Of a stretch of 64,000 nt of DNA, positions 8,053-59,639 are shown piece after piece. This DNA comes from Heloderma charlesbogerti (lineage: Eukaryota; Chordata; Lepidosauria; Squamata; Helodermatidae). The DNA lies in the NCBI GenBank assembly GCA_026122225.1, contig JANEZZ010002668.1, positions 868,001 to 932,000 of the forward strand. The letters run 5' to 3'. Under the pieces are notes generated by a model. That model saw only the letters and a list, made by a program, of their open reading frames with translations, did no database searches and was not told the origin of the DNA. A program made the position numbers and the translations under genes. Each line of letters begins with the position of its first letter. Positions within the stretch are counted from its first letter, which is position 1.

Positions 8053-11000
8053 CTCTTCAGCAAAGGAGATCGTTACCTTATCGTGGTGCCGGAGCTTGAG
8101 CACCTCAATGACGTCATGAACTAAACCGTGAAGGGACACCCAAGACGGTAAGGTCATGGCAGAGAGATCACACTAAATATGATCCCTGGGGAAGGAAACA
8201 GCAACCCACCCCAGTATTCTTGCCATGAAAACTAAATGGATCAGTACAACCAGAGATATGTCGGTATACCATCGGAAGATGGGACTCCCAGGTCGGAAGA
8301 TGGTCAAAATGCTACTGGGGAGGAACAGAGGATAAGTTCAACTAGCCCCAGATGTGATGACGCAGCTAGCTCAAAGCCGAAAGGACGGCTAGCAGCCGAT
8401 GGTGCTGGTGGTGAACGACGAATCCGATGTTCTAAAGATCAACACACCATAGGAACCTGGAATGTAAGATCTATGAGCCAGGGCAAATTGGATGTGGTTA
8501 TTGGGGAGATGTCAAGATTAAATATAGACATTTTGGGTGTCAGTGAACTGAAACGGACTGGAATGGGCCACTTCACATCAAATGACCACCAGATCTACTA
8601 CTGTGGACAAGAGGACCACAAAAGAAATGGAGTAGCCTTCATAATTAATAATAAAGTGGCTAAAGCAGTGCTTGGATACAATCCAAAAAATGACAGAATG
8701 ATCTCAATTCGAATTCAGGGTAAGCCATTTAACGTCACAGTGATCCAAATATACGCCCCAACCACAGATGCTGAAGAAGCAGAAGTAGATCAGTTCTATG
8801 AGGATCTGCAGCACCTACTGGATAGTACACCAAAAAAATGTTATTTTCATTAAAAGAGACTGGAATGCTAAGGTGGGTAGTCAAACAACACCGGGAATTA
8901 CAGGCAAGCATGGTCTGGGAGAACAAAATGAAGCAGGACATAGGCTGATAGAATTTTGCCAAGACAACTCACTGTGCATAACAAACACTCTCTTCCAACA
9001 ACCTAAGAGACGACTTTATACATGGACTTCACCAGACGGTCGACACCGAAATCAGATTGACTACATCCTTTGTAGCCAAAGGCGGCGGACATCTATGCAG
9101 TCGGTAAAAACAAGACCTGGAGCTGACTGTAGTTCAGATCATGAACTTCTTATTGCACAATTTAGAATCAGACTAAAGAGAATAGGGAAGACCCACAGAT
9201 CAGTTAGATATGCAATCACTAATATTCCTAATGAATATGCAGTGGAGGTGAAGAATAGATTTAAGGGACTAGATTTCGTAGATAGGGTCCCGGAAGAACT
9301 ATGGACAGAAGTTCGCAACATTGTTCAGGAGGCGGCAACAAAAAACGTCCCAAAGAAAAAGAAAACCAAGCAGGCAAGATGGCTGTCTGCTGAGACACTG
9401 GAAGCAGCCCAAGAAAGAAGGAAAGCAAAAGGCAACAGTGATAGGGGGAGATATGCCCAATTAAATGCAAAATTCCAGAGGTTAGCCAGAAGAGATAAGG
9501 AATTATTTTTAAACAAGCAATGCGCCGAAGTGGAAGAAGATCATAGAATAGGAAGGACAAGAGACCTCTTCCAGAAAATTAGAAACATCGGAGGTAAATT
9601 CCAGGCAAAAATGGGTATGATCAAAAACAAAGACAGCAAGGACCTAACAGAAGAGATCAAGAAAAGGTGGCAAGAATATACGGAAGATCTGTATAGGAAG
9701 GATAATAATATCACGGATAGATTTGACGGTGTGGTCAGTGAGCTAGAGCCAGACATCCTGAAGAGTGAGGTTGAATGGGCCTTAAGAAGCATTGCTAATA
9801 ACAAGGCAGCAGGAGATGACGGTATCCCAGCTGAACTGTTTAAAATCTTGCAAGATGATGCTGTCAAGGTGATGCATGCCATATGCTAGCAAATTTGGAA
9901 AACACAAGAATGGCCAACAGATTGGAAAAAATCAACTTATATCCCCATACCAAAAATGGGAAGCACCAAAGAATGTTCAAACTATCGAACAGTGGCACTT
10001 ATTTTACATGCCAGTAAGGTAATGCTCAAGATCTTGCAAGGTAGACTCCAGCAATTCATGGAACGAGAACTGCCAGATGTACAAGCTGGGTTTAGAAAAG
10101 GCAGAGGAGGAACTAGAGACCAAATTGCCAATATCTGCTGGATAATGGAGAAAGCCAGGGAGTTTCAGAAAAACATCTATTTCTCTTTTATTGACTATTC
10201 TAAAGCCTTTGACTGTGTGGATCATAATAAATTGTGGCAAGTTCTTGGTGGGATGGGGATACCAAGTCATCTGGTCTGCCTCCTGAGGAATCTGTATAAC
10301 GACCAAGTAGCAACGGTAAGAACAGACCACGGAACAACGGACTGGTTTAAGATTGGGCAAGGAGTACGGCAGGGTTGTATACTCTCACCCTACCTATTCA
10401 AACTGTATGCAGAACACATCATGCGATGTGCTGAGCTTGATGAAGCCAAGGCTGGAGTTAAAATTGCTGGAAGAAACATTAATAATCTCAGATATGCAGA
10501 TGATACCACTTGGATGGTTGAAAGCGAGGAGGAGCTGAGGAACCTCATGACGAAGGTGAAAGAAGAAAGTGCAAAAGCTGGCTTGCAGTTAAACCTCAAA
10601 AAAACCAAGATTATAGCAACCAGCTCGATTGATAACTGGCAAATAGAGGGAGAAAACGTGGAGGCAGTGACAGACGTTGTCTTTCTAGGCGTAAAGATTA
10701 CTGCAGACGCTGACTGCAGCCAGGAAATCAGAAGACGTTTACTTCTTGGGAGGACAGCAATGACAAATCTTGATAAAATAGTTAAGAGCAGAGACATCAC
10801 ACTGACAACGAAGTCCGCATAGTTAAAGCAATGGTATTCCCCGTAGTAACCTATGGCTGCGAGAGCTGGACCATAAGGAAGGCTGAGAGATGGAAGATAG
10901 ATGCTTTTGAACTGTGGTGTTGGAGGAAAATTCTGAGAGTGCCTTGGACTGCGAGAAGATCAAACCAGTCCATACTCCAGGAAATAAAGCCAGACTGCTC

Positions 11001-29954: not shown

Positions 29955-30350
29955 ACAACAGCATCTCTACACCAGCCTAAAATCCCACATTTAAAATGGG
30001 CTTTCTGCTTCTGTTTTAAATGCAGGATCACGACAGACTGCCTTTACATGTGCTTCCTTTCCCCCCTTATCTGAGTCTTCTGTATGTTTCATTATACAGT
30101 TGCCGGATGGCGCTGTGATCTAGCTCCTCTTATAGTGCATTTTCCTCTTTTCATGAGGGAACTCAAGTGGAACACAAACACTGTAATTTGATTGCTCATC
30201 TCTGATCTTTCAGAAAAAATGGAATAAAAGTCCATTTAGTGCGGGAGACGCCCTGGAGGTTGACGACTTCATCTAAAGGACCCACAAACTTCTGTGAGTA
30301 AGCAATCTCAATAGCAGGATAAAAGCGCCATGTGAAGAAGCCCCAGGTGT
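29955..30350 (-). mobile_element. Unnamed DNA-transposon-like repeat, copy 2 (inverted relative to copy 1)
   Basis: It begins GCATCTCTACACCAGCCTAA and ends GCGCCATGTGAAGAAGCC, the reverse complement of 27,440-27,830 over most of its length. It makes a 2.1-kb-spaced inverted pair. A third, shorter member is at 31,999-32,245. Confidence 0.6.
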
Positions 30351-34690: not shown

Positions 34691-34900
34691 CAGTGGCAGC
34701 TGGTGGCTCTGTTTTTGGTGGGGTTGTGAATCCATTCTGAGTTTCAGTCAGAATCATCCAGAACTCTAAAGGTGCTATCCAAGGTGCTGAACCTATTTTG
34801 GAGGCACCTTGGATGGTTCTTTTAGAGTTCTGGCTGATTCTGACTGAAACCCAGAATGGATTTACAGCCCTACCAAAATCAAAGTCACCAGCCTCCACTG
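34691..34900. mobile_element. Fold-back hAT-like MITE with ~90-bp arms
   Basis: The arms run inward from CAGTGGCAGCTGGTGGC and its complement GTCACCAGCCTCCACTG. They include TCCATTCTGAGTTTCAGTCA opposite TGACTGAAACCCAGAATGGA. The 8-bp flanks are GTTTAAGC and GTTTAAAC (7 of 8). The whole 210 bp would form one long hairpin. Confidence 0.8.
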
Positions 34901-36610: not shown

Positions 36611-36652
36611 CAGCTGCCAACCTAGGTGACAGTCTCAGAAAGTAGCTCCACA

Positions 36653-37535
36653 ATGAAGAATTTCTCATTTTCTCAAGACAGTGTCTATGCGTCTGGAACA
36701 AATGCATCTGAACTTCCTGAAAGACAACCAAGAGATGAAAAATTAGCTCAAATAGAGATCGCTGTGTTAGGAGTACTATTTATGGCAGCATCTGTGGGCA
36801 ACTTCATCCTCATACTGGTGTTATGGAGGAGAATGAAACTGTCTAGGATCTATGTGTTCCTGCTTCACCTCAGCATTGCAGACCTGATGGTTGCATTCTT
36901 TCAAGTCCTTCCTCAGCTCTTTTGGAAAATTACAGATGTTTTCCTGGGTCCAGACATCTTGTGCAGAACCATCAGTTATCTCCAGCTGTTGAGCATGTTT
37001 GCCTCCACTTATATGATAGTAGTTATGGCAATGGACAGATTCCAAGCTGTATGTTACCCCATGGCCTCTTTCCAAAAGAAAGGGGCTCTTTGGAATGCTT
37101 CCATCTGCACCAGCTGGTTTATCTCTTTGGTCTTTAGTGTTCCTCAAGTATTCATCTTTCGGAAGAATGAGGTATCTCCAGGCCTATTTGACTGCCAAGC
37201 TGACTTCATTGAACCCTGGGGCACAAAGGTGTATGTGACTTGGATTTCTGTGGCTATTTTCTTTCTCCCTGCAGCTATCCTCACCATATGCCATGTTAGG
37301 ATTTGCAGAGCAATCCACATGAATATGCATTTGAAAAGCTACAATGATTTTCAAGTAACACATCAGAAGCAAATACTGCCGTCCCAGGCAAGCAATGCAA
37401 ACTGTATGTCAAAGGCTATGATCAAAACAATAAAGATGACAGTGGTGATAGTTGTTGCTTATGTATGTTGCTGGTCACCTTTCTTCATTGCACAGTTGTG
37501 GACTGCCTGGCACCCCGGTGATGCTAGGACTGAAG
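36653..37535 (+). CDS. AVPR2-like: V2-type vasotocin/vasopressin receptor, exon 1 (TM1-TM6)
   Basis: A class A G-protein-coupled receptor for vasotocin; V2-type members couple to Gs and raise cAMP. Exon 1 gives residues 1-294 plus one base; exon 2 at 38,009 completes 360 residues. Sequons lie at N3 and N17. TM1 is about 34-58, with Asn50 and Asp77 at the conserved TM1 and TM2 sites. Cys104 and Cys181 form the usual disulphide. TM6 has CCWSPFFIAQLWTAW. V2-like signatures are LPQLFWKITD, the ALWNASICTSW loop and EPWGTKVYVTWI, close to human V2 (EPWGRRTYVTWI). Odd: the TM3 motif is DRF (128-130), not DRY or DRH. The start ATG has A at -3; no in-frame ATG precedes it. Which V2 paralogue it is needs a tree. 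Confidence 0.94.
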
Positions 37536-38008
37536 GTAAGACAGCCCTTTTTTGATGAATGATTTCATGTGTTTTTATGTTGAACTTTTAAAGTACTGTT
37601 TTCTTTAACTTAATAGAACTTTTGTTCAAAACATGTTATTAAATATCCATCTTGAAATATATCTAGATAGTTGCTGTATGTTGCTGTTAAAGAATTATGT
37701 TTTATGAACAACTGGGATAGATTAAAGCACTTACGCCATAATGCACTAACGATTTGAGACATTCCCAATTAATTTTAAAAATAATCTATAATGCATGTGA
37801 AAAGCTACATTGATCTGATTCTAAAACATTTAAAATGCATTTTGAAAATGTGACAAAATATTTTTAAAGACATTTGAAAAACCCTCCTTGCTGGGAAACA
37901 AACCTACCGTTCAATAATTGGTTGAAGATCAATGGAACAAAAAAGATCAATTTTTTCAATGTATTTATATGTCTTCTATGAATGACTTGTAAATTCTTTT
38001 CCTTTCAG
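37536..38008 (+). other. AVPR2-like: Intron of the vasotocin receptor gene
   Basis: A 473-bp GT-AG intron: donor GAAG|GTAAGA and acceptor CCTTTCAG|GTCC. It splits a Gly codon (phase 1) between TM6 and TM7, the position expected in the vasopressin/oxytocin receptor family. Confidence 0.92.
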
Positions 38009-46081: not shown

Positions 46082-47525
46082 AAAGATATCAGCAAAATAA
46101 GGCTTAAATGAAAGAGTGCTATAGCACCATAGCACTATAATGCTAATTCAAAAAATTAAGGAAATAAACCTTTCAGGCCACCAGCATTTTGGCAATGTGT
46201 TTTTCCCCCAATGTGTTTTTTTCCCCCCTAATTAAACACTTCCAGTCTACACTTAAGATCCAAAACAAGCATTAAACATTTTGTTTTTTGCCATTTCATG
46301 GGTGGTAATGGGCGATCACACTTAAATTAATAAGTGCTTAGTGCTAAATTAATAATATATTTTTTTTTAAAAAGGATCACTTCTTCTTTTCAAATGGCCA
46401 CTCAGGTGAATTGAATTTTGCCATCTTTACCCACAGCAGCTATGTCACACCCACTATTGTGGATAGAACATAGTGGGATGAACATACTGAAAGTGTGCAA
46501 TATTCCTGATAGTGTGTAAAGTCAATTGCAATTCCTTTTGTAGTTTATATTGGAAGAGCAATGATTCATTAGTACAAGGAGCCACCTATCTGGAAGCCAG
46601 CCTATCATAAACATGTGTCGCACAGACCCATAAATGTTCAGTAACACCCTTTTTATTTCCAGCACTGCTAAAAATCTTAGCAAGGTTCAGTTCATCCAGA
46701 TGACAATCGCTGTGTAGCATTCCATGTCTTGTAAAACTTCCAGTCCTCCTTATTTATTTGTGTAAGAAAAAAAAATCTATTGATTCCAGCTGTGAGTAAA
46801 GTTTGCAGAGTGTTCTTCTTGTCTCCCCTACCTTCTCTTCTGCAAGCCAAAACAATTTTATTTATAAAAGAGGCCTTGGCCAAGCCAGTCAACGAAATGA
46901 AACATATTGGCTTCGATCCAAGGACCCTGCTGCGCAAGTCAAAGACACTTCCTCTTGCTCAAGGGAGCTGCCAATTTCTCCCCATCTGCAGCCCACTGTG
47001 CCAGCCCCCCCCATCCCCAAATAACCTTCTTTGGAGCGTATCTTCTACTAGAGCCAGTTGTCACAGGGTTGCAGATGGAAGAAGAAATTGGCAGCCTCCT
47101 CTGCTGTGTAAGTGCCTTCATGCTGTGAGATCTTTGAAGCCAAGCCATTGTCATTACTGCTTTCAGTTCCAGAACAATTATTTTTTGAATTGGTGAAACT
47201 TGACTCAGATGCAGCCTATCATTTCTAATGAGAGGCACTGCAAGAGGCATAACAAGAGGCTACAGACCAAGTGAGATTTGTCATTATTAGGGATGGGTGA
47301 ACATGCCCCAACAGAGATCATATTTTGCTCATCAAGTTACACATTCTTCTGTCCAATCTCAGGTGAATGTTCTTCATTATTTCAAGATGGTTGTGCATAT
47401 ACCAATTGTTGTGCATGCACATCAAAGTGCATCTTGGGAACTGTAGTATTGAACCATGCCATGCATCATGATATCATGCATCACTACGTAATGTTCTTCT
47501 TTCTGATTGGCTGTTTTCACATGCC
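43415..47525. other. Intergenic DNA with simple repeats, no gene seen
   Basis: A (TG)n run at about 44,107-44,128, a G12 run near 44,266-44,278 and an (AC)n run at 46,049-46,079 are clear. No reading frame here resembles a known protein. Confidence 0.55.
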
Positions 47526-47536
47526 CTAGTTGTTTA

Positions 47537-47875
47537 AGGTAAAGGTAAAGGTGTCCCAAACAGTCATGCCCGACTCTAGGGTGCGGTGCTCATCTCCATT
47601 TCTAAGCCGAAGAGCCAGTGCTGTCCGAAGATGCTTCCGTGGTCGTGTGGCCGGCATGACTAAACACCGAAGTGCACGGAACGCTGTTACCTTTCCCGCC
47701 GAAGCAGTACCTATTTATCTACTTGCAATTTCTTGCTTTCGAACTGCTAGGTTGGCAGAAGCTGGGACTGAAGACGGGAGCTCACTCCGTCACGCAGCAC
47801 TCGGGTCTTGAACTGCTGTCCTGCCGACCTTCCGGTCTGCAGTTCAGCATCTTAACCACTAAGTTACCGCGGTCC
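47537..47875 (-). mobile_element. Sauria SINE with intact 10-bp target duplication
   Basis: On the minus strand it starts GGACCGCGGTAACTTAGTGG (tRNA-like head with B-box), passes through a TTCTGCCAACCTAGCAGTTC segment and GAAATGGAGATGAGCACCG, and ends in an ACCTTTACCTTTACCTT tail like the Bov-B/RTE 3' end. TAGTTGTTTA lies on both sides (47,527-47,536 and 47,876-47,885). Sauria SINEs are restricted to squamates and are thought to use Bov-B machinery for movement. Confidence 0.92.
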
Positions 47876-47889
47876 TAGTTGTTTACCCT

Positions 47890-50800
47890 ACAGTTAGTAT
47901 GAAGCCTCTGGAGCTCATGCAAGTAGGAGCTGCAGAAGATGTACCTCCATCTGCCAAAGCCCAGAACTCCTCTTGACCTGCCAGCTAGCCCAGACTGCAC
48001 TGCTCCCCTCCTGGCCTCCTCCTTCTTGGATTCCCTTTCCAGTATCCCCTCATAGTGCCACCCACCAGTGCCTGGGTCTAAAGTAAATGTTTATTTATCA
48101 GACAAGGACAATAATTTCTCCTCTACTAGAATGAAATGGCCTTGATTGTCTCTCTGGGTATGGAAAGGAAATGATGCCAGGAGTGAGAAAGAAACCTTGA
48201 ACAAGGGATGGATACTAACCTGCATAGCTGTTTCTTCAAATGCAACTGGTGTGTTGAAAGATTTCACATCCACTGTTTGATTTGGAAAACAGTAACTAAA
48301 GGGTTAAGTGACACCATTCCATGGGCCTGAGCATTGCAAATGGGAAATTTACATTTCCTTCAGAAAGGAAAGGGTTCAACCAACCAACATCAGGACATGG
48401 ACAGAAATGGCAGAGTCATGCAGTCTGCACACTTCAGTCATGCAGACTGTGCAGGCGCTCATAATCAATCTTAGTTTAAATAACAAAAATGCTAAAGTTC
48501 ATTAGATAGCGATCCACACTCAGTACACATATGGATATTACAAACATAATAGATTCTAACAACAAACCTCCTAATTTTGGGTTTTAGCAGTATCCCTAGT
48601 CATTACTGATGGACATCATTTTTTGAGAATGGGAATTGTAAATACTTCTCCTCCCTCACTCTCTTACCTTTTCAAACATACTTCTTCACCCCACACAGTC
48701 TAGAAATGAACCATCCAGCAAAATTGTAACTTTGAATTTTTTTATTCATTGAATAGTCACAATTGTGGCCAACTGATTTTTTATCCTGTCTTTCCTCTGA
48801 AGATGCTAGAGCAGTATGAAGTAAGTTAGACTAAGAGAAAGATGTGTTTTCTTCAGCCATTCATTGAGAAGGGATTTGAACCTCAGTTGCTCATTAACGA
48901 ATGCCAACCCCAACACTTTAGCCACCGCCTCATACTAGATATAGTTTTATATCTAGTGTCAGCTACTTGTAAATACAGATTTCTGATATTGGCATCATGA
49001 TCTACTACTATAGACTAGGCAACCTGAGCTACTAGGGCACTACTCTACCCCTTCTGAATTTTATACCCCAACCCCACTCCCTAGATGTAGTTTCTTCAAT
49101 CCCTGAAGCCCTGTCTGATTTCTGTTAGTTCCTTCCTTTTATAAGAATCCTCACACACCCCAAGCCCCTCCCACCTTTCACTCCCCGCCTAACCCTCTGT
49201 TAACCCTATCTTCCCTGGGCCACATTTAACAATGCAAACATGTTCATTAATATAATGAGCATATGTTACAATAACCTTTATAGATGAACACTTATGAGAG
49301 GTATTGAAGGAGAAAAGGCTACATTTGTAAATCTGAGCCTATGAAATGAATTCTGTAATAATTGGGAGGGGTGGAGGTGGAAATAAATGAGCTTAGCAAC
49401 AAAGTACAGCCCTCTGTGAAGTGAACGAAACATGATGCAAATAACTTTATAATTGTTGAATGATATTGTACATATAGTATTTATGCATATGATGTCTTGT
49501 AATTGGTCTGTAAGTGGTGATATTGTAGTTTTGGTGGATGATTATGTAATAAATTAGTAAAATTAATGTATTAATAAAAAGGAAATTAATACATGCAAAG
49601 AGAACCTATGAGGCATAAGCAGGGTCTTGCTGCAAGTAAGCACAGAATGCTTCCAGATGGGCAGTTCCTAAAGCTACTGAGAAAAAGCCATTGTGCAACT
49701 ATTCTGTCTTTCTTCCCTAATGGATCTTTTGTGGAAAGACAAATGATGGAAGAAGTAGTGGGGAAACACAGGAGGGTTACAAGTGGAAGACGACTTTGTT
49801 TAGGTGCACACCCACCCTGTATAAAATTCTGTGTCAGGCAGGGTAATTGCATGATAAACAACCTCCCCTGGAAGCATCCACAACCGTCACCCTTGATGAC
49901 CAGTATCCAGAGCTATACGCTCAAGCATCACATGTTCTGGCAAGATGGCTCAACCTTTAAATGACAGCACAGGACCCAGCAAGAGCCTGTATTAAGAGGT
50001 GAGGGGTGTTCCCTAGAGAATGCAACTAGAAGAGAAGCCAGTAAAGCAATTTGATTTGAATGATTCATAGAAATTAGGGCCAGTTCTACACCTTGTGTTA
50101 TTATGATTCTGTCATGGTAATGTTATATCCCCCTTGCATATTTATAGCTCATAGGACACACAATGACATTTGGTGTGGTATTTTGGATAATGTGGAATAA
50201 AAAGCAGGAAGTAACACTACAAAAATGGTATATCGAATGTGTAATGTGCCCTGACAGTTATCGGCGCACTTCAGTACTGCTATAAAGCAGTAGTGTAGAT
50301 CTAGCCTATGTTTGAGAAATAGAATGTAACTGGATCTTCCAGAATTTCAGTAACACATTACGAAGGAACTAGGAAAAAAGAGATTCACTGAGAGGTATGA
50401 AAACTGCAATTGCTTCTGTCTAAAGTTCCCAAAGGTCTCCTCTCCTCCCCTCTCAAAGGACTCCACCTTCCTCCTTTGCTGCTGCATACAATTGGAACCA
50501 ACTCCCAGAACACCTGTGAAATGCCACTTCTTTTCTTTCCTTCAAGAAGAGGCTTTTTCATGGAGGCCTTTGGCTCATTGCCCTAGTTCACATGCACTGC
50601 CACAACTAAACCTGTAATCAAGTCTACACATGTAACTGGAACAACCACACATTCCTTTTCCTGTTTACCCCTGCCTCCAACCCCTTTTGTCTGTTGTTCC
50701 CCTTGTGACAAATTCCATATTGTAAACTCTTTGAGATAGGGATCTGATGGTGGACTGAAGACACTATATAAACAGCTACCTAATGTATCTGGCTTTGCAT

Positions 50801-52765: not shown

Positions 52766-52776
52766 TAGTTTGCGGG

Positions 52777-53687
52777 TAGGGATGTACAAAAGACACTTAC
52801 CTTTTCGAAAGGTGACATTCGCGGTGGGGGGGAGGCGCTCTGTCCCTGCCCCTGAAATTCTCTCCAGCCAGCTGCGCTCCGCGAAGATTCTGCAAAGCTG
52901 TCAGCCGGGGCCACCTGCAGCCAGACATACGGCCGCTGGGCAGCCTGAAGGGACGCAAATGGCGGCTGCCGTAGCCACCGCCATTTGCGTCCCTGTATTT
53001 TGCCATGATACAATATACCACGCCATTTACGTTCCTTTTTTTTTTGGTCATAATAGGCTACGTAAATATTTACGTAGCCTATCACGGCAAAAAACAACAA
53101 CAGCGAATGCAAATGGTGGCGGCTACGGCCGCCACCATTTGCATCCCCTTTTTTTTGCCGTGATAGGTTATGTAAATATTTATGTAGCCTATTACGACAA
53201 AAAAAAAAAAAGGGAACGCAAATGGCAGCCACTACGCCATTTGTATTCCCCCCCTTTTTTGTGTGGCCGTAATAGCCTATGTAAATATTTACGGAGGCTC
53301 TCACGGCAAAAAAAAAAGGGAACGCAAATGGCCGCCACCGTAGCCGCCGCCATTTGCATTCCCTTAGTTTTGCCGTGATAGGCTACGTAAATACTTACGT
53401 AGCCTATCACGGCTTCCGCAGGGACGCAAATAGCATCCCTGCGTTAGCTGTCACAGGCTACGTAAGTATTTACGTAGCCTATCATGGCTATATGGAAGAA
53501 GGGAATGGTGGCTGCAGACACGGCCGCCATTCGCAATGCAGCACGGACGGCAGCAGGTAGGTGCTCCGTTCCAGGCCCATTTCGTGGGGGGGGAGGGGGG
53601 GCTTCGTTCCGCCATGGATTTCGGGGGGCCAAATGCACTGGCATTTGGCCTCACTGAGACCCATGGCAGAATTCTCTGACATCCCTA
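52777..53687 (-). mobile_element. Palindrome-array hAT MITE, copy 1 (911 bp)
   Basis: The ends are TAGGGATGTACAAAAG and CTCTGACATCCCTA. Perfect 8-bp duplications TTTGCGGG flank it at 52,769-52,776 and 53,688-53,695. Inside are five type-A palindromes centred on GTAAATATTTAC: 53,053-53,082 (a perfect 30-bp palindrome), 53,163-53,192, 53,272-53,301, 53,372-53,413 and about 53,450-53,488. Between them are type-B inverted repeats such as GGGACGCAAATGGCGG with its complement at 52,950-52,993. It is in the opposite orientation to copies 2 and 3. No transposase is encoded. Confidence 0.9.
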
Positions 53688-53754
53688 TTTGCGGGTCCTT
53701 GCGATGACGGCAACGTCCTCCAGGGCCGCTCCCGTGCTTTGCAACCATTATAGC

Positions 53755-53775
53755 ATATGTGTGTGTGTGTGTGTT
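53755..53775 (+). repeat. (TG)n microsatellite
   Basis: Ten TG units, about 20 bp, just outside palindrome-array copy 1. Confidence 0.85.
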
Positions 53776-54029
53776 TCCTAACAAAGGAAGTCTGGTACTT
53801 TTGTGAATGGCAGCATGAAACTCTGGTGTATTTGCACAATTCCGCTATACCACAGCACCACCTAGTGGTTGCGCACTGGAACATACAGAAATGCAGAGAA
53901 AGAAAGAAAAGAAAACCCAGAAAAAACATGTGTAAAGGAGCCAATCTTAATCTCACGAAGTATCCAGAAGCAGAAGCCTTGCTAAAGTGGCAGGTTAAAA
54001 GTAGGACTGTATACCGCCTTGTCACAAAG

Positions 54030-54165
54030 CCCAAATAACATCCCTGAAAGGATGTGTTGGGATATCAGAGCAGAGAATGGGGTCGGGGCAAGAACATGAA
54101 GGGCTTTGAAGGTAAGGACAAGGCGCTTGTGCAAGGTTCAGAAGTGGACAGGAAGCCAGCGTAAG
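54030..54165 (-). repeat. L2/CR1-like ORF2 3' fragment
   Basis: The minus strand reads a 'LASCPLLNLAQAPCPYLQSP' frame followed by non-coding sequence. The plus-strand words GAAGGGCTTTGAAGGTAAGG and GGACAGGAAGCCAGCGTAAG are the antisense of the common 'TGGCTGCC...TTTAAAGCCCT' motif of these elements (compare about 24,340-24,410). Confidence 0.45.
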
Positions 54166-54174
54166 GGTTTTAGG

Positions 54175-54998
54175 TAGGGATGTCAGAGAATTCCGCAACG
54201 AATCTCAGTGAGGCTGAATGCCAGTGCATTCAGCCCCCCGAAATCCGTCGCGGAATGAAACCCCCGCCCCCCCAACCCACGAAAGGCGCGCGGGATGAAG
54301 TTCCAGCCGCCCCCGTCCCACAAAAGGCGTGCGAAACGGAGCACTTACCTGCTTCTGTCCGTACTGCTTTCTGAATGGCGGCCGTCTTGCGGCCACCATT
54401 CGCTTCCTCCTCTTCATAGCCATGATAGGCTATGTAAATACTTACATAGCCTATCACGGCTAACGCAGGGACGCCATTGGCGTCCCTGCAGAGGCCGTGA
54501 TAGGCTACGTAAGTATTTACGTAGCCTATCAGGGTGGTGGTGGGGGGGAACCCAGCGTATGCAAATGGCGGCGGCTACCGCCATTTGCGTACGCTGGGCT
54601 TTTTCCCCCCTGCCGTGATAGGTTACATAAGTATTTACGTAGCCTATCACGGCAGGGGGAAAAAACCCAGCGTACGCAAATGGCGGCGGCTACCGCCATT
54701 TGCGTATGCTGGGGTTTTCCCCCCTGCCGTGATAGGCTACGTAAATATTTACGTAGCCTATCATGGCTCAATACAGGGATGCAAATGGTGGTGGCTATGA
54801 CAGCCGCCATTTGTGTCCCTGCAGAGCTGCCCAGCAGCTGGATGTCTGGCTGTGGGCGGCTGGAGCCAGCCGGGCAGGATTCTGGGGGGAGGACCGGATC
54901 GTCTCCCCCCCATCGAAGATTCTGGGGGAGGGATGGAGTTTTTCCCCCCACCACGGATTGCCCGGCTTGGAGCCAGGTAGGTGTTTCGTACATCCCTA
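54175..54998 (+). mobile_element. Palindrome-array hAT MITE, copy 2 (824 bp)
   Basis: The ends are TAGGGATGTCAGAGAATTCC and GTGTTTCGTACATCCCTA, flanked by perfect 8-bp duplications GTTTTAGG at 54,167-54,174 and 54,999-55,006. Type-A palindromes are at 54,417-54,462, 54,498-54,531, 54,612-54,653 and 54,726-54,767. Type-B inverted repeats (CCCAGCGTATGCAAATGGCG and complement, 6-bp loop) are at 54,551-54,598 and 54,666-54,713. The A and B units abut, so any part of about 54,550-54,770 can pair with its left or right neighbour. The right duplication is the base immediately before the large element at 55,007. Confidence 0.92.
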
Positions 54999-55380
54999 GT
55001 TTTAGGTAGGGCTGTGCACCACCTCATCACGAAGCCCAAATAGGGAGGCAAACTGGGCTTATTCGGATCAAAATGCTCATGATACGAAGCGGGTCTGAGC
55101 AGTACCGAGGTGCCCCTGGGCTAAGCGCCCCTCCCCCACAAAGCACCTCCTCTGCCTCGTATATTCAGAGCTCTAGTTCATGCCTTAGCAGTCCAGACAG
55201 GCTGTATCCAAAAAGTATCAGCTTCTGAATGCTCACGTGGAGGGGCGGAAGGAGGGAGGTGGGAGGGAGAAGGTGAGCGGATGTGGGAAGGTGGGGGAAG
55301 GTGGGAAGGCAAGTGCAGGAGGAGGAGGGAGTGTGCTTTGGTAAACAGGAACTCTCGGCCAGAACCGACGCTAGCAGTTT

Positions 55381-55420
55381 CCAATCAGAGAGAGTGGGTG
55401 GAGGAAGGGGGTATATATAC
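55381..55420 (+). promoter_or_regulatory. CCAAT and TATA boxes, probable promoter of the large hAT-like element
   Basis: CCAATCAG at 55,381-55,388 matches the NF-Y box and GTATATATAC at 55,411-55,420 is a TATA box, with normal spacing. They lie about 400 bp inside the left terminus and read toward the transposase remnant. Confidence 0.45.
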
Positions 55421-55429
55421 TTTGGTGAA

Positions 55430-56540
55430 AGGCTGCGTTTGGTTATTGTGCTAGCTGTGTCTTTCAGAGAGGGCTGGTGTATGGGCAGATGATCGTATGT
55501 GCCCGTGTGCACGCGCACGCATGCATTCCTTGGAGTTGTTCCTTCTATTTCTTCATTTTTGATCACCATTAGGCTTTCCTCAATATTTAGGAAATAAATT
55601 TCCTAAATATTGGCTGTAGTTTGGCTGTAGTGGGATTGTTCCCTCGCTCCGTGCTCAACTGTCCCCTTTGGGATGGTGTCTTTTGCAGCACCCCTTCCAG
55701 ACGCCTTCTCCTATTTCTTTCTACCTCCACTCACTTGTTATTTGTATTAGATATATTAATCTCTCCTTTCTATATTTTTTTCAGACTAACGTAGCTTTTC
55801 CTTGCTCATTGCTGCTATGCTCCCCCTCCCCCGCCACTCCTGTGTTTGTTTATGTCGCTTTTGGACTCTGAAGAAGGCTGTGTTTGTTGTTTAAGGACGA
55901 TCCTCACTTCTGCTTCCTCCATTGTATTTCCTTGTTAATTTTGTCTGTCAACTCTGACTCTTTTAAATATTTAAAACCCCAGTCTTATTTTGAACTTTAA
56001 AAGCAAACTTTGAATTCTGGGCATGTTCCTCCTCCCCGTTTTTAAGTCATGTTCAAGCATTTAGTTTTTTCTTGCTTTCTAAATTCTTAAAGAAAGGCAT
56101 ATTATAGCAGCCTATGTGTGTAGTGTTTGGTCCCACCGACCCCCATGCTGAAGTGAACCGTCTGTGTCTTCTCTGTATTGATCCCTCCAAAACAGAAATT
56201 AAAGAAGGTTTTTTTAAAATTATTGTTTGCTTGCTCTTGGCTCTTATCTTATCGTCTGCACTGTTGTCCTGTATTTTTTGAAGTTAACTTGCCTTCCATA
56301 AAAGAACACGAAATATAAAACAATAAATTAAGGACACCCATCATTTGCTTAGGTAGTTCTGCTTTTCTTTATCTCTTGTGTGTCTGTGTCCACATGTGTG
56401 TGTGTGTGCTAGGTTGTTGTTCCACCAACACTATATGTCCACATTTCAAGACAGTGTGGAAAAAGCACGAGACACATAGTATTTATACTGATTACCTTCT
56501 TATTCCAGTAACACTCCACTGTGTGGCAAAGCAATCCAGC
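55430..56540 (+). other. Non-coding interior of the large hAT-like element
   Basis: T-rich sequence with no coding match. It may be the leader and first intron of the transposase gene. A short (TG)n lies at 56,395-56,408. Confidence 0.35.
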
Positions 56541-56542
56541 GC

Positions 56543-57316
56543 TAGGGATGTCAGAGAATTCCGCCACGGATCTCAGTGAGGCCGAATGCACTGGCCCCCG
56601 AAATCCATGGCAGAACGAAGCCCCCGCCCCCCCAACCCACGAAAGGCGCGCGAAACGGAGCACTTACCTGCTGCCGCCCGTGCTGACTTGCAAATGGCAG
56701 CCGCCATTCGCTTCTTCATCATAGCCGTGATAGGCTACGTAAGTATTTACGTAGCCTATCACGGCAATCCCCCCAAAAAACAGCGTACACAAATGGCGGC
56801 GGCTATGGCGGCCGCCATTTGCGTTCCCTATTTTTAGCCATTTTAGCCTACATAAATGTTTACGTAAGCTATTACGGCGAAAAAAAAAAAGGAATGCAAA
56901 TAGCGCCCACTACGCTATTTGCATTCCCCTTTTTTTCGCCATAATAGCCTATGTAAATATTTACATAGGCTAAAATGGCTAAAAATAGGGAACGCAAATG
57001 GCGGCCGCCGTAGCCGCCACCATTTGCGTACGCTTTTTTTTTTTGGCTTGCCGTGATAGGCTACATAAATACTTACGTAGCCTATCATGCCAGCTTCGCT
57101 GGACACAAATGGCGGCTGCTACGGCGGCCACAATTTGCGTCCGCAGCAGCCTGTCCGCAGCTGGAACTCCGGCTGCGGATGATCCTGGCCAGCGGCTCCA
57201 TGGAGCCTCTGCGGAGCGGAGCCAGCCCAGGGAGGATTCTGGGGGGAGGGATGGAGCGCCTCCCCCCCACCGCAAATCCAAGCTGCGAAAAGGTAAGTCA
57301 CTTTTGTACATCCCTA
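56543..57316 (+). mobile_element. Palindrome-array hAT MITE, copy 3 (774 bp), nested
   Basis: The ends are TAGGGATGTCAGAGAATTCC and CACTTTTGTACATCCCTA, flanked by TCCAGCGC (56,535-56,542) and TCCAGTGC (57,317-57,324), 7 of 8 identical. Type-A palindromes are at 56,724-56,765, 56,837-56,878, 56,938-56,979 and 57,050-57,091, at 101-113 bp intervals. GCAAATGGCGGC-type inverted repeats lie between them. Its left 150 bp match copy 2 (54,175) almost base for base; its right end matches the left end of copy 1 in reverse. Confidence 0.9.
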
Positions 57317-57435
57317 TCCAGTGCAATATGAGGCATCTTGGGGCATTGGCTGGGGCAGAGGTGGGTGAGGTGCTGCTGTCACTAGCAGCACCATTAGGCC
57401 AGCTGTCTGTCCCCTAGTGCAGATAGTGCGTCCTG

Positions 57436-58011
57436 GTGGAGAAAGGGCAGCAGAGTGTGGAGAGCAGTTGCAGTGCGTGGAGGTCACTGTTCGAGGAGAC
57501 TGGTGTGAGCAGGTGCAGTAGTTGCACTCTTGCCCAAGGTGGAGTAGCATCTCCTTCTGCAGTGGAAGATGGGAGCCCGCTGATGGATGTTAGGTCAGAG
57601 GTGTCTGACATCCTCAGCATGGTGGAGGGCGAGGAGGAGGAGATCCTCCAGGGTGTGTTGAAGGAGGAGCAGCAGGAAGAGGCTCCAGCACCCGACCCCT
57701 CTTACATTGTTCCCCCCGCTCATGTGGTGCATCTCCTCCTCCCCTGAAACAGCAGGGCAGCATTGTGTGGGACCACTGAGTTGGGAGCTGATCCCAGCAG
57801 TGCCATGTGCCGCCACTGCAAGGAGTCTCTGAGCAGGGGAAACAGCCGGGGCAGTACAGCCCCAGCAGCTGCTCCTGCACAAGGAGGCAGCACCAGTTGG
57901 TCTTGCTTGGGGGAGAGGCCCCCACGTCCCAGCAGGCCAGCAGCGAGGGCAAGCATGAGGCTGGTAGTGCTGCCAGAACTCCTGCGAGCTCTCCATCTCT
58001 CGCCCCCATGA
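57436..58011 (+). pseudogene. Broken hAT transposase N-terminus with BED-type zinc finger
   Basis: One frame reads an acidic stretch (VEGEEEEILQGVLKEEQQEE) to a stop at 57,745-57,747. Just after it SIVWDH appears in another frame, and ELGADPSSAMCRHCKESLSRG follows in the first frame. VWDHF...C-x2-C...SRG is the beginning of a BED zinc finger as in hAT/ZBED transposases; a small deletion near 57,775 breaks it. The His pair expected downstream is not visible, as the sequence becomes Ala/Pro/Gly-rich. No catalytic (RNase H-like) region follows. The overlapping minus-strand frames at 57,595-58,115 are artefacts of GC-rich sequence. Confidence 0.6.
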
Positions 58012-58379
58012 GGCTTGGGCAGGCCGCCATGGAGGACATGGGGTGGGGGAAGTCTGGGTCCACCAGGTGGAGGTTTCCAGCATTCAAAAATCACTGGCCC
58101 TTCTGGGCTAGGCACTGACTGTGTTCATTCAAGTTACATTGAAAATACTCATCTAGTGTGTGCTAGAGATAAAGGAGATAAAAAATAACCTCTTCCAGCC
58201 TGGCTGCCAGGTAATGTGGGTATTCAGCCACAGAGAGGCTGAGCCGCTGATTCTCCTGAATAAGGGCTGTTGTGCTCTCTAAAGAAACCTGCAGCAGAGA
58301 TTAGGGACAGTGACCTCTGCTCCAACACATTTTCCCTTCTGAGTTTGGTCTGAGTTCCTGGGAATATCGCATTCAATCT

Positions 58380-58672
58380 GCGCCTAGCACACAAGCCAGT
58401 GGGCCAAAATGCCTGGGCTTTGGGGGGTGGGATTCTCTCGAGGGGGGCCAGGAGGGGCCCAGGTTTCACATGCATGCATGGAAACAGTGAGAAGTTACAG
58501 CTCTTTGCTTTGGGAGTTTTGGTGGAAAAAATCAAATTTCACCAGCACCTTGCACACAAGCCAGTGGGCCAAACTGCCTGGGATTTGGGGGGGTGCAATG
58601 CCCTTGAGGGGGGCTGGGAGAGGCCATGGTGTCACGTGCATGTGTGGAAACAGGGAGAAGTTACATCTTTTA
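58380..58672 (+). repeat. Tandem ~160-bp direct repeats at the 3' part of the large hAT-like element
   Basis: The unit starts AGCACACAAGCCAGTGGGCC, continues with a CTGCCTGGGATTTGGGGGG-like run and ends CAGGGAGAAGTTACA. Two full units lie at 58,386 and 58,552. A third divergent one (AGCACAAAAACCACCAGGTC) begins at 59,345 after the copy-4 insertion, so that insertion split the array. Confidence 0.75.
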
Positions 58673-58674
58673 AC

Positions 58675-59314
58675 TAGGGATGGATGAAAGTCCCTTACCT
58701 GTCCTCGAAGCTTGCTTCGCGGTGGGGGGGAGGCACTTTGCTTCTCCCCCTGAAGTTCATGCGAGGGGGGGGAGGCGCCCCTCCTCGCCCAGCCGAAATT
58801 CAGGCCGGGGGGGAGGCGCCCCATCCCTCGCCGGCGAAATTCAGGCCGGGTAGAAGCGCCCCGTCTACCCGGCCGCGAAAAAAAAACAAAAACAAAAACC
58901 ACCCCCGTGATAGGCTACATAACGATTTACATAGCCTATCACGGCTAGATTTCCAAAGTCAGGCGTGATAGGCTACGTCGTCACGTAGCCTATCACGGGT
59001 GACTTTGAAAAAAAAAAAAAGCGCGTACGCAAATGGCAGCCCCCATAGGGCGCCGCCATTTGCGTTCCTTATTTGGTCCCTGTAGTCTATGTAAAGATTT
59101 ACGTAAACTACAGCGAAAATAAGGGCAACGCCCCCGCCCCTGACGAAGACCCGACGAACCGCCGCCAGGACCCGCCGCCGGGAAGGACATTCGTGAAAGG
59201 TAAGTCCCATCCTGGGGGGGGGGTGGCGGAGAATTTCACCGCCGATTTTGGGGGGCCGAATGCGTTGGCACTCGGCCCCCCGAAGTTTTGGGGAGAAATT
59301 CTCCCCCATCCCTA
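58675..59314 (-). mobile_element. Palindrome-array hAT MITE, copy 4 (640 bp), nested
   Basis: The ends are TAGGGATGGATGAAAG and CTCCCCCATCCCTA, flanked by perfect CTTTTAAC duplications (58,667-58,674 and 59,315-59,322). Type-A palindromes are at 58,905-58,944, about 58,955-59,008 (arms extended by AAAGTCA/TGACTTT) and 59,081-59,112. A GCAAATGGC inverted repeat lies at about 59,028-59,066. It is the most diverged copy: the centre of its second palindrome is ACGTCGTCACGT instead of GTAAATATTTAC. Confidence 0.9.
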
Positions 59315-59639
59315 CTTTTAACTACATCAGATTTTAACTCCACCTAGCACAAAAACCACCAGGTCAAACTGTCTGAAATTTTGCAGGTGGCCTCTTCTCC
59401 AGGGACGTGGAGAGCTGTCCAAATTTCATGACTGTATCCTAAAAATATTATGACCATTTGTGTTTTCCCATGCAAGTCAATGGGAAAATGCCCCAAATGG
59501 GCGATCCGGATATCTGAATCTTGCTTCGGATTTGGATCTGAATCAAAGTGGAGGGGGTCCAAATTGACTCAAGGCAGATAGGGGTCTGAAGCAGCATCCG
59601 AAGTGGATCAGGGGGTCCGTGCACAGCCCTAGTTAAAAG

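Follow-up and report, generated by a model that had tools for sequence, protein, structure and literature searches.

A very abundant family of small hAT-type MITEs in Heloderma charlesbogerti with a nested palindromic core and outward donor-like motifs

Four insertions and their genome-wide family

Four similar insertions lie close together in a 64,000-nucleotide stretch of Heloderma charlesbogerti DNA (GCA_026122225.1, contig JANEZZ010002668.1; hereafter the window), which raises the question of what kind of element they represent and why their interior consists of palindromes. An 8-bp target site duplication (TSD) together with a short terminal inverted repeat (TIR) starting with YARNG is the hallmark of hAT transposons. 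The original prediction of TAGGGATG ends and 8-bp TSDs, three perfect and one matching at 7/8 bases, was confirmed exactly (Table 1). TAGGG ends were present on all four elements; elements 2 and 3 are inverted relative to element 1, and element 4 represents a diverged subfamily with 59-62% identity to elements 1-3. When the window was scanned for end pairs at most 6 kb apart, with one mismatch allowed per end, 153 candidate pairs were obtained, and a TSD match of at least 7 bases was found for the four elements and one unrelated pair (7/8). For element 1, a gap-free paralogous empty site is present at 30242-30307 (49/66 positions identical over the junction).

Table 1. Features of the window (positions are those of the whole stretch)
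Feature	Position	Strand	Details
Element 1	52777..53687	+	911 bp, 5 A units; TSD TTTGCGGG at 52769-52776 / 53688-53695
Element 2	54175..54998	-	824 bp, 4 A units; TSD GTTTTAGG at 54167-54174 / 54999-55006
Element 3	56543..57316	-	774 bp, 4 A units; TSD TCCAGCGC/TCCAGTGC, 7/8, at 56535-56542 / 57317-57324
Element 4	58675..59314	+	640 bp, 3 A units; TSD CTTTTAAC at 58667-58674 / 59315-59322
A palindrome, example	53373..53414		CCGTGATAGGCTACGTAAATACTTACGTAGCCTATCACGGCT
B palindrome, example	52949..52994		AGGGACGCAAATGGCGGC...GCCATTTGCGTCCCT
Element 1, long palindromic core	53053..53407		best self-complementary stretch, 78% identical; element positions 277-631
Element 2, long palindromic core	54474..54788		82%; 211-525 of reversed element
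Element 3, long palindromic core	56697..57119		84%; 198-620 of reversed element
Element 4, palindromic core	58904..58999		76%; element positions 230-325
Element 1, left outward donor-like motif	52795..52803	-	AAGGTAAGT, 19 bp from tip
Element 1, right outward donor-like motif	53554..53562	+	CAGGTAGGT
Element 2, left (element orientation) outward donor-like motif	54974..54982	+	CAGGTAGGT
Element 2, right outward donor-like motif	54343..54351	-	CAGGTAAGT
Element 3, left outward donor-like motif	57290..57298	+	AAGGTAAGT
Element 3, right outward donor-like motif	56662..56670	-	CAGGTAAGT
Element 4, left outward donor-like motif	58693..58701	-	CAGGTAAGG
Element 4, right outward donor-like motif	59197..59205	+	AAGGTAAGT
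Older hAT-like element holding elements 2-4	54002..59631		ends TAGGACTGTATA / TGCACAGCCCTA; TSD GTTAAAAG at 53994-54001 / 59632-59639
Weak BED zinc-finger remnant of older element	57796..57849	+	PF02892, E 0.0084, 16.6 bits, below cut-off 20.6

Exact matches to the palindrome core number 31,410 in the 2.3-Gb genome, and those to one left end 32,121, against 4 and 0, respectively, for reversed-pattern controls. A sample of 40 loci from one contig (C1), picked for an exact core, yielded 39 further complete elements, 7 of the 40 loci being without one; their TSDs match at 8/8 bases in 29, 7/8 in nine and 6/8 in one, where 6/8 was the selection floor and near-TAGGGATG ends were required by the search. 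T is commonest at TSD position 2 (18/43) and A at position 7 (21/43), a moderate fit to the preference nTnnnnAn. Of 42 joined flanks tested, 21 had a matching copy that spans the junction, and in four of these the match is gap-free over 235-300 bp. Size lies between 492 and 1005 bp in 40 of the 43 elements; the three elements above 1300 bp were excluded from the counts of palindrome length, unit position, both-arm changes, mirrored units, A/B recurrence, arm versus nearest element and CpG in arms.

The TSDs and gap-free paralogous empty sites confirm precise insertion and the predicted mobility as transposons, and the proposed layout recurs in other copies with varying unit number. An origin of the TSDs and palindromes from assembly errors or from a local satellite is practically excluded, since the cores are spread over the genome, the TSDs are distinct and the empty sites are gap-free. 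The family is short, non-coding and of high copy number, as is typical of MITEs, and its 8-bp TSD, nTnnnnAn preference and short YARNG-type TIR place it in the hAT superfamily; its members are small, non-autonomous DNA transposons present in very large numbers. As had been claimed, the interior is not recognisable as a deleted transposase. Two element ORFs that were tried matched no Pfam family above cut-off, the single ORF of element 1 that was tried had no protein relatives, and Rfam gave no match at gathering threshold.

Structure and evolution of the palindromic core

The predicted unit numbers (5, 4, 4 and 3) were right, as was the spacing of about 110 bp, although some spacings are 75-118 bp. 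Within the window, the core TACGTAAATATTTACGTA has 14 matches with at most 3 mismatches against 0.02 expected, and 19 palindromes exceed a fixed score, 14 of them inside the elements; none was obtained in 30 first-order simulations of element sequence. The apparent array of units is mostly one long nested palindrome. Its best self-complementary stretch has a median of 370 bp (range 92-544 bp, n=40 elements), and in one of the 40 (L023_5984) this stretch lies near the right end, outside the core. A and B palindromes recur together in 37/40 elements; their strict alternation holds by eye in elements 1-3, but in many of the 40 an automatic scan found it broken or B undetected. A Foldback element was rejected as an identity, as the inverted repeat is internal and the two ends show no evident relation outside the short TIR. 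The palindrome core was absent from the viral and prokaryote contigs searched.

Multiplication of the units by unequal exchange, as originally proposed, is contradicted by the fact that units keep their position and asymmetric variants are mirrored, not direct. For 105 of 156 units, the closest counterpart in a different element holds an identical index counted from the left (32.6 expected). A mirror-image partner within the same element exists for 18 of the 22 asymmetric units and a direct one, at equal tolerance, for two; in a random other element, a mean of 1.9 have a mirror partner. The compensating changes named as a check in the original prediction exist as symmetric changes of both arms: at position -11, both arms are changed in 57 of 152 A units (14.8 expected; four of 156 units were dropped beforehand), although few of these changes are independent, because the shuffle control leaves relatedness in. 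In the window copies alone, covariation of the arms was not significant (13 A units; permutation 0.19 and 0.12), a result overturned with the 152 units. Arm likeness is weaker in B palindromes (own 0.709 vs shuffled 0.680; 0/2000). In 30/40 elements the arms resemble each other more than they resemble the nearest sampled element, which is not the true nearest, since the sample is tiny compared with the genome. Because units hold their position and variants come as mirror images, we infer that the core would grow and stay symmetric by duplicating in inverted orientation or by copying one arm onto the other through hairpins (template switching). The mirrored variants also make the expansion and mending of a palindrome countable in a vertebrate.

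Outward donor-like motifs and a possible function

Both ends of all four window elements carry one outward motif, (A/C)AG|GTAAGT, a near-optimal match to a 5' splice donor (MAG|GTRAGT) when scored with a donor matrix. These motifs, the CpG richness of the elements and the older element around elements 2-4 were absent from the original prediction. Shuffled window elements reached the observed eight sites in 12/500 cases at a score of at least 8 and in 0/500 at a score of at least 10. At the latter score, 38 elements that could be oriented without the motif (the remaining 5/43 are reported apart here and keep a motif-based orientation in the other counts) have an outward motif at the left end in 34, at the right end in 34 and at both in 33, with none inward, although 33/38 does not amount to 38 independent tests, as the copies are related; flank controls gave 3/172 and 13/~172 zone-strands. 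With motif-based orientation, the left motif lies 17-20 bp from the tip in 39/43 elements. Left ends found by their 14 terminal bases (n=62, two of which carry a right-type interior) show ACTT in 42 and the AG|GTA core in 54; in 52 of the latter, position -3 is occupied by A or C. Right ends found by a 19-base search have outward motifs in 50/57 and inward motifs in none, with C (35), A (11) or G (4) at -3, and the motif lies 64-169 bp from the right tip. Genome-wide, only 233 of 32,121 left ends have a base other than A or C at -3.

CpG observed/expected was 0.81-1.00 in the window elements versus 0.27 outside, with a median of 0.95 over 43 elements. In the A arms, CpG positions deviate from the consensus in 242/1248 cases versus 131/3120 for other positions; because of this 4.6-fold excess, the copies probably became subject to germ-line methylation once inserted and are presumably not live CpG islands. 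Exact ATGGCGGC sites, which resemble YY1/start-codon elements, number 14 in the four elements and 0 in the window outside 52-59.7 kb. In 16/37 right-donor elements, a MAAAAAGRKT-like ATG precedes the donor by a multiple of three (60-117 nt), and 13 of these 16 frames are open. In 8/37 an ATG of this type lies in another phase than in those 16 (three with a stop), and 13/37 lack one, so that there is no conserved first-exon frame; a conserved coding first exon is at most suggestive.

From these sequence features we propose, with a probability of about 0.5, that the element serves as a mobile cassette supplying a promoter and a first exon in both directions, mobilised in trans, with the palindromic body between outward donor-like motifs. 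The symmetric core, with its ATGGCGGC sites, would start transcription in both directions, the first exon of each transcript would end at the outward donor, and splicing would join it to a downstream host exon; since the end motifs match outward donors, RNA started inside the element would likely be spliced onto neighbouring genes. U1-type sites protect transcripts from early cleavage, and the outward sites would also confer such protection on element transcripts. As the palindromic core would serve both directions equally, the orientation of insertion would not matter. The probable germ-line methylation of the copies, the lack of a common first-exon frame and the position of the left motif close to the tip speak against this reading.

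It is possible, if doubtful, that AGGTAAGT at both ends is instead a subterminal site for a hAT transposase with a BED zinc finger, the donor likeness being coincidental and the palindromes further binding or synapsis sites. The motif is inverted between the two ends and its left copy keeps a near-constant distance from the tip, as expected of a transposase site. Moreover, the left end of the main subfamily has a quasi-palindrome AAGTCACTT at ~14-22, continued by the motif, similar to the left end of Hermes, where an AAGT quasi-palindrome at bases 11-27 is described as bound by two BED domains (PMC10368747). For Herves, the transposase is described as recognising a short subterminal motif that recurs at each end, and three 100-bp tandem repeats begin 146 bp inward from the left end (PMC3143072). 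However, TACCT occurs without ACTT in 17/62 left ends and ACTT without TACCT in 5; the restriction to A or C at -3 is donor-like, the right motif lies far and variably from its tip, and there is mostly a single motif per end, whereas Herves, as described there, repeats its motif.

The core could also have arisen without function, as hairpin-prone DNA repaired by template switching during transposition or replication, which would both make and mend inverted repeats. The mirrored asymmetric units and the closeness of arms within an element are in line with this, but it leaves the conserved outward motifs, the constant ends and the joint recurrence of A and B unexplained, and we regard it as rather improbable. 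Retention of the core for long-hairpin transcripts, which would either supply small-RNA pathways or shield the element from them, appears unlikely. Predicted folds of eight elements on both strands were far more stable than shuffled sequences (z -12 to -69, rough values from six shuffles each), and symmetric changes occur at some stem positions, the central four bases showing nearly only one-arm changes. Yet any palindrome would fold equally well, symmetry would also result from inverted duplication without selection, and one-arm differences are common at CpG positions.

Under the promoter and first-exon cassette reading, a further and tentative suggestion is that a DNA transposon has turned into an orientation-independent dispenser of exons and promoters, which may have seeded more than 30,000 insertions in one lizard lineage, each as a possible alternative first exon of the gene on either side, with inverted duplication keeping its halves alike. 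One element combines a self-symmetric core evolving by mirror-image duplication, more than 30,000 ends and conserved outward donor-like motifs; if the donors work, it would act as a natural gene trap in both directions, able to rewire the first exons of genes throughout a vertebrate genome.

Related systems, the older host element and hAT genes

The family is of a known kind, a hAT MITE, but its layout is without counterpart in the literature searched, in agreement with the original remark that no described family was known to have it. The hAT MITEs Mar of Drosophila (PMC3517528) and BniHAT of Brassica nigra (PMC7385995) are likewise short and non-autonomous, and BniHAT also reaches high copy number. 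An 8-bp TSD and a short TIR are shared with them as hallmarks of hAT elements. The lizard family differs in its nested palindrome of 92-544 bp, flanked by donor-like motifs that point outward; neither feature is known to have been described for Mar or BniHAT. Maize Ac/Ds has a TIR of the TAGGGATG type and an 8-bp TSD; the string also occurs in PMC3260210. Splice sites lie near the Ds termini, and Ds is described as biased towards supplying donors (PMC5432752). The donors of Ds1 lie at most 35 bp from the terminus and, as outlined there, end exons entering from outside, whereas those of the lizard element would end exons coming from inside the element or crossing it. Herves of Anopheles, whose repeats are imperfect and ~100 bp long, is autonomous, and PMC3143072 describes the repeats as tandem, with no mention of palindromes. 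Housefly Hermes shares the nTnnnnAn preference and, as described, is without a long palindromic core. Galileo of Drosophila, from the P superfamily, has variable internal repeats in non-autonomous copies and foldback-like ends, but these are described as direct repeats within long TIRs (PMC4168063). Mouse L1 5'UTR monomers are variable-number tandem promoter units that carry a putative YY1 motif and are also active in antisense (PMC9022269); L1 is a retrotransposon, and the analogy is one of function only.

Elements 2-4 lie within an older hAT-like element, which has another end of its own type at 55007 and a CpG observed/expected of 0.30 in its remaining sequence. The family itself is likely moved in trans by the transposase of another element. 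For the hAT dimerisation domain, 150 matches of 871 candidates were scored, with open frames of up to 908 aa. Around hAT genes with frames of 589-908 aa, the downstream sequence of eight (0.4-0.6 kb, lengthened to 1.5 kb for three) and the 1 kb preceding one gene revealed neither a family boundary nor an autonomous partner, and a regular expression for the hAT C-terminal motif had no match in 342 kb of sequence. The element L015 (3559 bp) was rejected as an autonomous copy owing to reverse-transcriptase-type sequence in its middle (ORFs judged by eye, hAT domain checked by the motif expression). The reversed left tip of the family, GTACATCCCTA, was found behind three of eight hAT genes (L054, L055 and L059) and with one mismatch at L053 and L056; it was rejected as a boundary behind the former three, as the sequence beyond it continues alike between them. 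One member of the palindrome-core family had inserted behind one hAT gene.

Family identity, copy number and composition

The original prediction of four hAT-type insertions with 8-bp target duplications (three perfect, one with 7/8) was borne out, and all four elements have exact TAGGGATG/CATCCCTA ends at the coordinates tabulated below. The core TACGTAAATATTTACGTA, around which the A palindromes are built, gave 14 matches in the window when up to three mismatches were allowed, against 0.02 expected. The predicted alternation of A with a second palindrome type, B, held in part: by eye, elements 1-3 read B-A-B-...-B, while element 4, which belongs to a diverged subfamily, carries three A and one B. 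For element 1, a gap-free paralogous empty site was found within the window (30242-30307; 49/66 bases identical).

The genome (2.302 Gb, 3246 contigs) was searched and yielded 31,410 exact cores (4 for the reversed-pattern control), and the left end TAGGGATGTACGAAANNNACTTACCT occurred 32,121 times (control 0); at about 0.87 kb per copy, the family would take up ~1.2% of the genome. From 40 further loci 39 complete elements were recovered, with target duplications of 8/8 in 29, 7/8 in nine and 6/8 in one, and together with the four of the window (43 elements) they contain between one and six A units. Joined flanks matched a copy across the junction in 21/42 cases, four of them gap-free over 235-300 bp; several of the 21 matches were gapped, and some were other family copies where elements are nested. 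We regard it as near certain that the elements form a hAT family that is non-autonomous, has a core symmetric to itself and carries donor-like motifs pointing outward. Recombinant ends were seen at two sampled loci (L047 782-1526 and L044 1668), where left tip sequence is joined to right-type subterminal sequence.

The CpG observed/expected ratio is 0.81-1.00 in the window elements versus 0.27 outside. In A arms, mismatches to the consensus amount to 19.4% at CpG positions versus 4.2% elsewhere. Therefore, the CpG richness appears to be a property of the source copies that decays after insertion, and family copies are probably methylated.

Growth of the palindromic interior

In 40 elements of at most 1300 bp, the best self-complementary stretch measured 92-544 bp (median 370 bp), with a median identity of 85% and a best of 94%; only in L023_5984 was it located near the right end. 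This long self-complementarity is owed in part to the small palindromes themselves; the unit variants show more. Arms differing at marker positions were found in 22 A units from 13 elements, and 18 of these have a partner with swapped arms in the same element, whereas two have a direct partner at equal tolerance. Because mirrored units come in pairs, the 18 correspond to about nine cases. When random other elements served as control (500 draws), a mirror partner was found for 1.9 of those units on average and for seven at most.

Units hold their position: the nearest unit in other elements had the same index from the left in 105/156 cases versus 32.6 expected. When units on either strand were compared, the closest one was situated in another element in 125/156 cases; where it was in the same element, it was on the opposite strand in 24 cases and on the same strand in seven. 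The suggested multiplication of units by unequal exchange is disfavoured by the excess of mirrored (18/22) over direct (2/22) partners and by the constancy of unit position. The core would instead grow and be maintained through inverted duplication or copying from arm to arm. Local arm likeness was 0.812 versus 0.754 by chance (0/2000 shuffles). The changes on both arms for which a larger copy sample had been proposed were indeed seen there, at -11, -16 and -15, and the central four bases showed nearly only one-arm changes. Independent events are few, because subfamilies share ancestry.

Outward donor-like motifs at the element ends

Each window element harbors one strong 5' splice-site-like 9-mer per strand, both pointing outward, and no other scoring at least 8. 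Shuffled window elements gave 0.6 sites at a score of at least 10 (0/500 reached eight sites) and 3.1 sites at a score of at least 8 (12/500). Among 38 elements oriented without the motif, it was present on the left in 34, on the right in 34 and on both sides in 33, and was never directed inward; flanking-DNA controls gave 3/172 for 60-bp zones and 13/about 172 for 230-bp zones. Five ambiguously oriented elements had five left and two right motifs (both in two) and one inward site. In left ends located by their first 14 bases only, two of which carry a right-type interior, the AG/GTA core was found in 54/62 and ACTT in 42/62. The third base before GT (-3) was A or C in 52 of those 54, and differed from A/C in 233/32,121 left ends genome-wide. 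Right ends located by their last 19 bases were outward in 50/57 and inward in none, with C (35), A (11) or G (4) at -3.

5' splice donors tolerate variation of the kind seen around (A/C)AG/GTRAGT, and as a sequence pattern the motif fits such a donor. To the right, the sequence partly resembles a first exon, since it combines a ATGGCGGC-type start within one half of a B palindrome with a stretch rich in GCC and the donor. An ATG of this type placed a multiple of three before the right donor, at varying distance, occurs in 16/37 elements with a right donor (13 open), compared with 8/37 having a same-type ATG in another phase (five open) and 13/37 having none; this phase could be kept by GCC-type triplet repeats alone. 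The motif would also fit a transposase site, as the left motif is fixed in position and the AAGTCACTT quasi-palindrome recalls the BED-bound site of the hAT transposon Hermes (PMC10368747). However, TACCT is kept without ACTT in 17/62 left ends versus five showing the reverse, a loss pattern that favours the donor without settling the question. A promoter/first-exon mechanism is the best-supported reading, with a probability of about 0.5.

In searches of papers, largely open-access ones, no element recognisable as having such a layout was found.

Candidate partners and surroundings

Candidate hAT dimerisation domains were detected at 871 places; scores were obtained for 150 of them, and many of these lie within open frames, which reach up to 908 aa. 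One hAT family has many apparently open 879-908-aa frames around this domain (e.g. on contigs C1330, C235 and C3039 of genome G000), and judged from these frames it is possibly recently active. The ends of the family, which would flank an autonomous partner, did not occur as a boundary in the downstream pieces of eight hAT genes. GTACATCCCTA, the family left tip reversed, is present in 3/8 of these pieces and was rejected as an element boundary, since the sequence beyond it runs on alike between copies; it may be there by chance or represent an old end. Downstream of one of the eight genes a family member is inserted.

Features of the window
Feature	Position	Strand	Remarks
LINE remnant	8236-10822	+	endonuclease and reverse transcriptase domains
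160-bp palindrome	34716-34875		TAGGGCTGTAAATCC-type end
Mesotocin/vasotocin-type receptor gene, open stretch	36626-37555	+	309 aa, vs Elgaria 371 aa
TAGGGATG...CATCCCTA-like pair, one mismatch	47288-48598		7/8 duplication GTCATTAT/GTCATTAC
Element 1	52777-53687		
Element 2	54175-54998		
Element 3	56543-57316		
Element 4	58675-59314		

The closest match of the GPCR gene, at 90% identity, is to a mesotocin receptor-like protein from Elgaria multicarinata, and the named ones among the best 16 of 299 matches are squamate, so that the sequenced animal is probably an anguimorph lizard. Given the length of the Elgaria protein, the receptor frame may be one exon or truncated. Elements 2-4 are nested in an older element whose ends are of the TAGGGCTGTGCA type and which is flanked by the duplicated 8 bp GTTAAAAG, at 53994 and at 59632. 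It has a CpG observed/expected ratio of 0.30 and a weak BED zinc-finger remnant scoring under the Pfam cut-off. Element 2 directly adjoins a second TAGGGCTGTGCA-type end at 55007 (54999-55007), and the flanking 8 bp of that hAT-type element served as its target. The 160-bp palindrome is perhaps another foldback MITE-like insertion. The TAGGGATG...CATCCCTA-like pair lacks the core palindrome and encloses, near 47540, a SINE-like stretch that we take to be Squam1-like.
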